Source: a virus
IMG/VR virus record: IMGVR_UViG_3300047319_000106
Location: 1-64,000 of that record
Length of the DNA stretch: 64,000 nt
Reading direction: 5' to 3' (one strand)
A model generated the notes under the pieces. That model was not told the origin of the DNA and searched no databases. It saw nothing but the letters and a program-made list of their open reading frames with translations. The position numbers and the translations under genes are program-made. This document shows positions 61,065 through 63,934 of the stretch, piece by piece. Numbering within the stretch: position 1 is the stretch's first letter; each line of letters begins with the position of its first letter.

Positions 61065-61532
61065 ATGCAGCGCGAATTAGAGGTTCTCCGTCATGCGATC
61101 GGCTCCGACATCTACGGTCGAACACGCAGCGACCGGAACTACTTCATCACCGGACCAGGCTCGACCGATTACACGACGTGCGTCGCACTGGTCCAGCGCG
61201 GCCTGATGAACCGCACACCGGGCAATGCGATCACCGGCGGCGGCGATGTCTTCCGCGTGACCGACACGGGCCGACTCTTCGTACGCGAGAACAGCGAGGT
61301 CGATCCGAATCGCGACTGGCTGGTGCTCGCACCGTGGAATGAGCCTTGGCAATACGACATGTGGTTCACGATTCGAGCGACCACACGAGGCAAGGCGCGG
61401 TATCAGGCGTTTCTATACCTCAGAGAGGTCAACGACATGCCGAAGAGCGATCTGATCCGCATCCGCGTGAAAGCGGTGCCGCGCCCAAAAGCAACCGCCG
61501 ACGACGCGGCGGACGACGACATGCCGTTTTGA
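61065..61532 (+). CDS. Early protein with SSB-like C-terminal tip
   Basis: 155 aa, ATG 61065. Winged-helix-like N-terminal part (CVALVQRGLMNRTPGNAITG, GGDVFRVTDTGRLFVRENSE), then a basic stretch (IRIRVKAVPRPKATAD) and an acidic end DDAADDDMPF that matches the tip of bacterial SSB (DDDIPF type). The tip could recruit host repair proteins that normally dock on SSB. Function otherwise unknown. Confidence 0.6.
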   Translation: MQRELEVLRHAIGSDIYGRTRSDRNYFITGPGSTDYTTCVALVQRGLMNRTPGNAITGGGDVFRVTDTGRLFVRENSEVDPNRDWLVLAPWNEPWQYDMWFTIRATTRGKARYQAFLYLREVNDMPKSDLIRIRVKAVPRPKATADDAADDDMPF

Positions 61533-61573
61533 CACCCCTGGCCCTGCGCCGGATAACGATTAAAGAGGACAGC

Positions 61574-62518
61574 ATGACTAAATCTCTCGTGCTTCGCACC
61601 TGCCGTGCAGACATGACTTCGCAGAACGGATTCGTATGGCCCAACGTCGGCGGGATTGCGGAAGCGCCTGATTGGGAGGCAACGCCCGAATGCGGGAATG
61701 GCCTGCACGGATGGCTCTATGGACAAGGCGACCATTCATGCAGCAGCTATCTCGACAGCACAGCGAAATGGCTCGTCGTCGAGGTCGATTCAGACCGCAT
61801 CGCGATGCTCGGTGGTAAGTGCAAGTTTCCGATGGCAAAGGTTCTTTTCGTCGGAGGCAAGAAGGACGCCACCGATTACCTGCGCGAACATGAGCCGCGC
61901 TCTCGTGAGGTTGCGGTGATCGGCGCTCAACTCGTCGTCGGCGATGACGAAGCAGTGACTGTCGGCGCCCTCGGCACGGCAACGGCTGGCGACAGCGGCA
62001 CGGCAACGGCTGGCGACAGCGGCACGGCAACGGCTGGCGACAGCGGCACGGCAACGGCTGGCGACAGCGGCACGGCAACGGCTGGCTACAGAGGCACGGC
62101 AACGGCTGGCAACAGCGGCACGGCAACGGCTGGCTACAGAGGCACGGCAACGGCTGGCGCCCTCGGCACGGCAACGGCTGGCGACAGCGGCACGGCAACG
62201 GCTGGCGACAGCGGCACGGCAACGGCTGGCGACAGCGGCACGGCAACGGCTGGCGACAGCGGCACGGCAACGGCTGGCTACAGAGGCACGGCAACGGCTG
62301 GCGACAGCGGCACGGCAACGGCTGGCTACAGAGGCACGGCAACGGCTGGCGCCCTCGGCACGGCAACGGCTGGCGACAGAGGCGAAATCAGAATTCGTTA
62401 TTGGGATTCGAAGGCCGAACGCTATCGCACAGTCATTGGCTACATCGGCGAAGACGGTCTGCTCCCCGGCGTCAAATACCGTCTCGACGACAACCATAAG
62501 TTCGTCAAGGCCGAATGA
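61574..62518 (+). CDS. Octapeptide-repeat protein (DUF7666-like N-terminus)
   Basis: 314 aa, ATG 61574 with GAGGACA upstream. Residues 1-128 form a globular domain (LVLRTCRADMTSQNGFVWPN, ECGNGLHGWLYGQGDHSCSS, DYLREHEPRSREVAVI). Residues 134-269 are 17 tandem octapeptides GTATAGxx with xx = DS, YR, NS, AL or DR. A 45-residue C-terminal domain (IRIRYWDSKAERYRTVIGYI) follows. The repeat likely makes a beta-solenoid rod. Function unknown. The reverse strand also has an open frame, which is a by-product. Confidence 0.68.
   Translation: MTKSLVLRTCRADMTSQNGFVWPNVGGIAEAPDWEATPECGNGLHGWLYGQGDHSCSSYLDSTAKWLVVEVDSDRIAMLGGKCKFPMAKVLFVGGKKDATDYLREHEPRSREVAVIGAQLVVGDDEAVTVGALGTATAGDSGTATAGDSGTATAGDSGTATAGDSGTATAGYRGTATAGNSGTATAGYRGTATAGALGTATAGDSGTATAGDSGTATAGDSGTATAGDSGTATAGYRGTATAGDSGTATAGYRGTATAGALGTATAGDRGEIRIRYWDSKAERYRTVIGYIGEDGLLPGVKYRLDDNHKFVKAE
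61973..62380 (+). repeat. 24-bp tandem repeat, 17 copies
   Basis: Unit GGCACGGCAACGGCTGGC plus six variable bases. Order of unit types: DS DS DS DS YR NS YR AL, then the same eight with a single base change (N to D), then DR. So two copies of a 192-bp block. No spacers, so not a CRISPR array. Confidence 0.95.
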
Positions 62519-62730
62519 TCCGCCACCTTCACGCTTTCCGCGCCCTGCTCGAATCCCTCGAAGCGCTCGGGCTCGCTCGGAAGCCGACGACACAACAGAC
62601 GCACGCGCTCTGTCAGAGATTCGTGGAGATGGTCGCGGAGCTGATGGGGCAGCGCGTGACGATCTGGATTGGCGAAACACCTATTGCGAGAACACCAAAT
62701 GAAATTCGGAAGCGTGTGCAGCGGTATTGA
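62515..62730 (+). CDS. Small helical protein
   Basis: 71 aa, ATG 62515 in an ATGA overlap with the repeat gene. MIRHLHAFRALLESLEALGL, LCQRFVEMVAELMGQRVTIW. Overlaps the methyltransferase start by 32 bases. No family recognised; could assist the methyltransferase. Confidence 0.52.
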   Translation: MIRHLHAFRALLESLEALGLARKPTTQQTHALCQRFVEMVAELMGQRVTIWIGETPIARTPNEIRKRVQRY

Positions 62731-63934
62731 AGCGGCGAGCTGCGCCTGGCATCCGCTCGGATGGCAAACGCAGTTCGTCAGCGAGATCGAGCCGTTTCCC
62801 TCCGCCGTGCTCGAGAACCACTACCCGACCGTGCCGAACCGCGGCGACATGACCCAATTCAAGGAATGGCCTGATGCAGCTATCGATCTTCTCGTCGGAG
62901 GAACTCCCTGCCAAAGCCTCAGCGTCGCCGGACTCCGAAAAGGACTGGCTGACCCGCGTGGCAATCTCATGCTCACCTATCTTGCCATTGCTGCACGATT
63001 CGCTCCCCGCTGGCTGGTCTGGGAAAACGTCCCCGGTGTCCTGTCTTCAAACGGCGGACGGGATTTTGGAACCTTGCTCGGAGGGTTGGCAGAACTCGGG
63101 TATGGGTTCGCCTACCGCGTTCTTGACGCTCAATTCTTCGGAGTGGCCCAGCGACGCCGCCGTGTGTTCGTTGTCGGACATCTTGGAGACTGGCGACGTG
63201 CCGCAGCGGTACTTTTTGAGCGCGAAAGCCTGCTCGGGCATCCTGCGCCGCGCCGGGAATCGCGGCAAGGAGTTGCCCCGACCCTTAGCGCACGCACTAA
63301 AGGCGGTGGCGGACTCGGAACCGACTTTGAGTGCGATGGCGGCTTGATTGCGCACTCGCTGCGCGGAGAAGGCTTTGATGCGAGCGAGGACGGAACCGGG
63401 CGCGGTACGCCGCTCGTGCCGTGTCAACCATACACGCTCGCGATTCGAGGCCGTGACGATGGGCACGCGCTCGAGTATCGACAGGACGGGACTGCGAACG
63501 CGATCCTGACGCCGAACGGCGGTCGTGGCGGCATTGGCGTTGGTGCAGTTGCATTCGACCTTCAGCAGATCACCAGCGCTGAGAACCGGTCGCGCGTCGC
63601 ACCAGGCCCGACGCCGACGCTGACAAAGGGAAGCGCGCTTCATGCGATCGCCGACACGCTAACGAGCTCGTGGCACAACTCGAACGGCGCGAGCGCCGGG
63701 AACAACGCGGGCGTCATCAACCCGGTCTTTCAGGGGTCGGCCGTGCGCCGCCTGACGCCCCGCGAGTGCGAGCGGCTTCAAGGCTTCCCAGACGACTACA
63801 CGCTGATCAATGTGCGCGGCAAGCCTGCCGCTGACGGACCGCGATATAAGGCGCTCGGCAATAGCATGGCCGTGCCTGTGATGCGCTGGATCGGCGAGCG
63901 TATTCAAAAGGTCGATGCGCTCAGCGCGTCTTGA
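62699..63934 (+). CDS. dcm: DNA cytosine-5 methyltransferase
   Basis: 411 aa, ATG 62699. Motif I FGSVCSGIEAASCAWHPLG, motif IV GGTPCQSLSVAGLRKGL with the catalytic Cys, motif VI VWENVPGVLSSNGG, motif VIII AQRRRRVFVVG, and motifs IX-X in RLTPRECERLQGFPDDYT and KALGNSMAVPVMRWIG. Target recognition region (about 200-340) is Gly-rich. Protects phage DNA from host restriction or changes host methylation. Another frame (62874-63347) is also open and better coding-like over part of the gene. Confidence 0.88.
   Translation: MKFGSVCSGIEAASCAWHPLGWQTQFVSEIEPFPSAVLENHYPTVPNRGDMTQFKEWPDAAIDLLVGGTPCQSLSVAGLRKGLADPRGNLMLTYLAIAARFAPRWLVWENVPGVLSSNGGRDFGTLLGGLAELGYGFAYRVLDAQFFGVAQRRRRVFVVGHLGDWRRAAAVLFERESLLGHPAPRRESRQGVAPTLSARTKGGGGLGTDFECDGGLIAHSLRGEGFDASEDGTGRGTPLVPCQPYTLAIRGRDDGHALEYRQDGTANAILTPNGGRGGIGVGAVAFDLQQITSAENRSRVAPGPTPTLTKGSALHAIADTLTSSWHNSNGASAGNNAGVINPVFQGSAVRRLTPRECERLQGFPDDYTLINVRGKPAADGPRYKALGNSMAVPVMRWIGERIQKVDALSAS
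62874..63347 (+). CDS. Nested gene inside the methyltransferase (alternative frame)
   Basis: 157 aa from ATG 62874 with AAGGA 8 nt upstream, TGA 63345-63347. Starts MQLSIFSSEELPAKASASPD; a Ser/Pro-rich middle (GWSGKTSPVSCLQTADGILE, NSGMGSPTAFLTLNSSEWPS) and a helical end (SLSDILETGDVPQRYFLSAK, ACSGILRRAGNRGKELPRPL). Between 63162 and 63278, 34 of 39 codons end in G or C in this frame against 20 of 39 in the methyltransferase frame, so this frame looks like the dominant coding one there. I recall similar phage proteins, but cannot verify. Function unknown. Confidence 0.6.
   Translation: MQLSIFSSEELPAKASASPDSEKDWLTRVAISCSPILPLLHDSLPAGWSGKTSPVSCLQTADGILEPCSEGWQNSGMGSPTAFLTLNSSEWPSDAAVCSLSDILETGDVPQRYFLSAKACSGILRRAGNRGKELPRPLAHALKAVADSEPTLSAMAA

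Follow-up and report, generated by a model that had tools for sequence, protein, structure and literature searches.

The MTase locus and its nested reading frame

The window, the whole stretch of DNA analysed here, comprises 64,000 nucleotides (positions 1 to 64,000) of IMG/VR virus record IMGVR_UViG_3300047319_000106, which has a total length of 65,482 bases. A gene encoding a C5 cytosine DNA methyltransferase (MTase) was identified with a second open reading frame nested in its +1 frame. The features of the locus are as follows.

62699..63934, + strand: C5 cytosine DNA MTase, the host gene of the overlap, 411 codons, motifs I-X, frame 0 (PF00145, E=1e-52; TIGR00675, E=6e-52)
62850..62852, + strand: TGA in the nested frame, formed from the conserved GDM(T) of the MTase, just 5' of the nested start (71% of loci have a stop in this column)
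62861..62865, + strand: AAGGA, Shine-Dalgarno (SD)-like, 8 nt before the nested ATG (read from the sequence)
62874..63347, + strand: nested gene, 157 codons and a stop, ATG start, +1 frame of the MTase (ORF list and conservation in homologues)
62877..62891, + strand: QLSIF, N-terminal pentapeptide of the nested protein resembling a beta-sliding-clamp-binding motif (clamp-like motif in 65 of 75 distinct loci)
63120..63329, + strand: C-terminal conserved domain of the nested protein, with three helices predicted from about 63171 (conservation in 145 proteins, structure model and in-frame fusions)

The MTase carries motifs I, IV (PCQ), VI (ENV), VIII (QRRRR) and IX-X of the C5 family (PF00145), and the nested gene overprints motifs IV-VIII. 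A preliminary description made from the letters of the window had reported a 157-codon ATG frame wholly inside the 411-codon MTase and an AAGGA ribosome site; both were found as described, at an offset of +1 and with a spacer of 8 nt, respectively. Its counts of codons ending in G/C over 63162-63278 were also exact, with 34/39 for the nested frame against 20/39 for that of the MTase. Along the whole MTase, codons ending in G/C amounted to 46/58 before the overlap, 89/158 within it and 144/195 after it. When the MTase amino acids were fixed and synonymous codons were resampled, 157 stop-free codons occurred with P ~0.09-0.13. The nested frame is thus unremarkable from the window alone and stands out beyond chance only with its homologues.

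The nested protein is most closely related (94% identical) to one on a Caballeronia grimmiae contig (L090), a likeness which suggests that the window derives from a temperate phage of Burkholderiaceae. Just upstream of the MTase, the ORF at 61346-62518 contains a 24-bp tandem repeat (window 61972-62383, 17 copies, 92% match) that encodes GTATAGDS repeats and also creates long antisense ORFs.

Conservation and distribution of the nested gene

The comparative tests used 80 viral loci which were picked by the MTase frame and not by the nested frame. These were close relatives of the window MTase, and the P1-type, Bacillota and mycobacteriophage members were looked at separately. From motif IV to VIII+40, the +1 frame was stop-free in 79 of the 80 loci, and the single stop observed compares with 124 expected when codons were permuted within the region or 383 expected from codon usage outside it. 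In the +2 frame of the same loci, 422 stops were observed against 388 expected. The pair difference at fourfold-degenerate sites of the MTase was 0.67 upstream, 0.35 in the overlap, and 0.69 and 0.67 downstream; in the overlap tail it decreased to 0.18 over residues 166-203 (0.10-0.22, minimum 0.10). In this tail, MTase codons varied most at position 1 rather than 3, and position 1 corresponds to the nested third position. In addition, nested residues L158, L162, L173, A177, G180, I181, L182, R184, A185, R188 and L192 (MTase numbering) were invariant, with 18-45% expected from the MTase frame alone.

Substitution rates in 72 close pairs (dNN 0.0109, dNS 0.0238, dSN 0.0335 and dSS 0.153) showed purifying selection on both frames. 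Constraint on the nested gene was dNN/dNS 0.46 (0.42-0.51) and dSN/dSS 0.22 (0.19-0.25), with intervals slightly too narrow since a few pairs repeat one contig, and constraint on the MTase was 0.33 (dNN/dSN) and 0.16. As in other overlapping pairs, one frame is older and more widely spread, with 1660 phage records matched by the MTase and 134 by the nested protein. The preliminary description had proposed a real overlapping gene and had named two results that would speak against it, stop codons in the nested frame of homologous loci and no drop in synonymous variation of the MTase over 62874-63347; the near absence of stops, the fourfold drop and the two-frame selection all support the gene, and neither contrary result was obtained. 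Together, these comparisons establish the nested ORF as a real protein-coding gene, widely conserved and nearly unannotated.

An ATG or TTG was present at about the same position in 78 of the 80 loci, mostly with an SD-like site. A site of at least 4 nt was found in 86% of homologues compared with 48% under synonymous resampling, which is an upper estimate as the best of several candidate starts was taken. A nested-frame stop lay a few codons 5' of the start in 71% of loci. The conserved start, the SD-like site and the nearby upstream in-frame stop favour internal initiation over frameshifting.

A tblastn search with the nested protein matched 134 phage records, 119 genome stretches, at least 597 IMG/VR stretches and 529 plasmid records, the last mostly from Escherichia and Salmonella with P1-like annotation. 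Matches came from Pseudomonadota, Acidobacteriota, Bacteroidota, Bacillota and others, and the family was found in the +1 frame in P1 dmt, mycobacteriophages, and Vibrio and gut phages. Each of the first 170 loci gave a +1 match within a C5 MTase, and three additional frame-0 matches traced to contigs that were damaged or N-masked. Of a further 120 loci, 106 were read on the + strand and proved to be +1, and a single one, the ordinary MTase L375, has a similar segment in frame; the loci on the opposite strand were mostly +1 too and included one fusion (L351). Among the examined homologues, those outside the +1 placement were fusions in frame and a small number of loci with damage or indels. 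Neither the loci examined nor a search of about 1,200 genomes yielded a stand-alone copy.

Nested-frame products are already in databases as PHROG 16143 ('DNA methyltransferase') and Thibault gp104 (uncharacterized, 81 aa). The name of PHROG 16143 does not suit the nested protein, which has no catalytic motifs in its own frame and falls outside the C5 methyltransferases. Searches of Pfam and NCBIfam gave no match to it, and its invariant residues are not MTase motifs. Matches to PHROG 1008 were discarded as they were weak and their alignment crosses a stop. The literature covered, with most subscription papers outside that coverage, gave no description of a nested gene in phage cytosine methyltransferases. 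Among the individual records, the annotated CDS at 1687-2178 of Escherichia phage vB_EcoM-813R1 is the nested frame, and in that record RdgC and the MTase are in pieces, possibly through sequencing errors. Two Bifidobacterium moukalabense loci (L162 and L164) lie at the two ends of one contig and have the same MTase, with frameshifts that join the MTase and nested frames differently.

The nested protein, its clamp-like motif and its fusions

Residues L100, L104, L115, A119, C120, G122-R126, R130, L138 and L142 of the nested protein were invariant in 145 proteins. The full-length structure model was poor (pLDDT 62) with only the C-terminal domain confident, in which residues 98-150 form a three-helix unit. 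The N-terminal two thirds, modelled with low confidence, are probably disordered. The C-terminal domain had no match among solved structures by PDB sequence or Foldseek searches. Matches in BFVD were an uncultured-phage 'cytosine methyltransferase' of 521 aa, which matches the domain in its own frame, and Thibault gp104, a nested-frame product that is annotated. The sequence GKTSP of the nested protein was set aside as evidence because it is dictated by WENVPG of the MTase.

The consensus for binding to the beta sliding clamp is Q-L-x-L-F, with Gln at position 1 and hydrophobic residues at positions 4 and 5, as in IS transposases (PMC4549789). Nested N-termini of the window clade read QLSIF, QMSMF, QLTFL and similar. 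A clamp-like motif was present in 65 of 75 distinct loci against 1.0% in a null with resampled MTase codons, and a narrower pattern in 46 of 75 against 0.25%; the search patterns were composed after viewing the sequences, and the consensus itself is external (PMC4549789). Since the Q moves by one codon between subgroups and the motif is nevertheless retained, selection on the motif is suggested. Some Bacillota nested proteins also carry QLTLF or QMTLF. The motif was absent from P1-type nested ORFs and from 62 distinct Bacillota ORFs of the MENIQ type, so clamp binding would not be a universal function of the family. The MQST start of the P1 type was ruled out as a homologue of MQLS because it lies later in the MTase. 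One nested protein (L372) bears clamp-like motifs at both ends (QLSLF and QLTLF), and a C5 MTase without the nested gene (L385) has QVNLF near its C-terminus.

In two loci, one from a genome of the class of Caballeronia (L351) and one from the Bacteroidota search (L384), the MTase is complete, the +1 frame has 14 and 8 stops, respectively, and the nested domain follows motif X in frame (LNSSAFPNN...LADIVQTDEVPEKFYLSPQACKGILRR). Seven IMG/VR loci (L387-L392 and L431) showed the same fused architecture, and the +1 frame of the fused clade has 6-16 stops. Alignment of the nested with the fused domain by hhalign gave a probability of 97.8% (E=7e-13). Four of the fused proteins (L388, L390, L391 and L392) end in QLSLF, QLTLF, QMSIF and QISLF, respectively, a few residues before the stop, and the fused forms bearing the clamp-like motif are one clade. 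In a maximum-likelihood tree rooted at the midpoint, the fused clade (support 100/99) lies within P1-like nested relatives (95/93), and for this reason un-nesting is, on this tree, the derived state.

In P1-like elements, the nested ORF was intact in all seven examined (L001 and L470-L475). A reading of the P1 match as an in-frame N-terminus of Dmt was ruled out, as its frame is +1. The P1-like alleles differ at the nested 3' end (KRRKSLPPLLQMAL, ARGRKLPDILQTSL and ARGRKLPEMLEMAL), where two or three alleles have apparently been exchanged with the MTase target-recognition region; sequence replacement there thus still encodes a similar K-x-LP-x-x-L in the nested frame. In Thibault (L007), KashFlow (L263) and FP_Toutatis (L264, 1581-2198), an indel or insertion has altered the MTase and the nested C-terminal domain survives, either as a tail in frame or as an ORF of 82 aa. 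Because the domain persists in Thibault and FP_Toutatis despite a disrupted MTase frame, it may act without an intact MTase.

Proposed role and alternative readings

The nested gene was overprinted on a phage C5 MTase, in its +1 frame, and has been conserved across phyla. Its protein is probably translated from its own start inside the MTase message, as the conserved start, SD-like site and upstream in-frame stop suggest. Most likely this product serves the same MTase as an accessory subunit, its C-terminal three-helix domain contacting the MTase or its DNA. Fusion of the same domain in frame to the MTase C-terminus argues that it works with the MTase, and the suggestion of the preliminary description that the product is a methyltransferase partner is favoured by these fusions and appears somewhat better than even. 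In the window clade, the disordered N-terminus with QLSIF would dock on the beta sliding clamp, through which newly replicated phage DNA could be methylated at the fork. The clamp would be that of the host, since no beta clamp gene was detectable in the phage record. A QLxLF-type pentapeptide occurs in the window and its clade at the level of sequence, and a clamp tether there is plausible, if slightly short of an even chance. In one derived clade the nest was broken, the domain now being a C-terminal extension of the MTase with the clamp-like motif in several members. Taken as a whole, an accessory MTase subunit whose C-terminal domain serves the MTase and whose N-terminus docks on the clamp in the window clade is a reading evenly balanced between right and wrong. 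Eukaryotic DNMT1 is recruited by PCNA. By analogy, a nested clamp-binding adaptor might couple methylation to the fork in tailed phages of many phyla, with one lineage having un-nested and fused it; this wider extension is tentative and rather unlikely.

A real nested gene could also encode a product acting on the host, for example by occupying the clamp to slow host replication or by anti-restriction, with the nesting being a physical tie only. A QLxLF motif suits an inhibitor of the clamp no less than a tether, and the domain is retained beside the disrupted MTase frames of Thibault and FP_Toutatis. Against this, the de-nested clade carries the domain in an MTase fusion, the searched genomes and loci gave no stand-alone copy, and no defence or anti-defence model of PADLOC matched the nested protein; for the anti-restriction role raised in the preliminary description, PADLOC, Pfam and PDB likewise gave no match. 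This reading is unlikely, with perhaps half the weight of the accessory subunit model.

Less probable still, the C-terminal domain may be a displaced target-recognition segment of the MTase, supplied in trans after its loss from the main frame. Other C5 MTases have a similar in-frame stretch after motif VIII (EKYYFSAKAVQGML), and L375 and its relatives match in frame at the homologous place. That match is statistically weak (hhalign probability 38%, E=3e-4). Because the nested domain overlaps motif VIII itself in its first part, a simple frameshift cannot account for it. The proposal concerns origin and is compatible with the accessory subunit.

That the frame is kept open for effects on MTase translation (coupling, ribosome decoy or frameshifting) with a functionless peptide would fit the start and SD signals within the MTase message, but it is very improbable given that the nested amino acids are strongly conserved and that the domain has been relocated into a protein fusion. 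A chance ORF of G+C-rich MTase codons, which the resampling of the window sequence alone would have allowed, is refuted by the homologues in every comparative test and by the in-frame fusions.

As in phiX174 E in D and tombusvirus p19 in p22, a second protein occupies the other frame of an older gene and both are selected. Unlike in those pairs, the nested gene is found in dsDNA tailed phages with spare room, its host gene is a DNA methyltransferase, and it is conserved over several host phyla with an in-frame fusion in one clade. The m5C half of P1 Dmt, a bifunctional m5C/GATC methyltransferase (AF234172), bears a homologous ORF in the same +1 frame, which differs from that of the window by its later start and lack of a clamp motif and is unannotated. 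PHROG 16143 and Thibault gp104 are nested-frame products too, but they are labelled methyltransferase or unknown, with the overlap and frame unrecognised in annotation. The terminal Q-hydrophobic pentapeptide on a DNA-modifying factor is shared with QLxLF clamp binders such as IS transposases (PMC4549789). The DNMT1-PCNA pair offers the same likeness; in contrast to both, the motif here, a putative clamp binder, would sit on a separate nested protein.

Overall, a protein of well over 100 aa lies concealed in the gene of a textbook enzyme, P1 included, and nearly all annotation misses it. Methyltransferase mutants of such phages hit the nested gene too. As an overlapping gene of large DNA phages it is unusually clear, with far-reaching conservation and a natural un-nesting whose position in a tree can be given. 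Should the clamp tether prove right, phage replication and DNA modification would be connected in a way open to testing.
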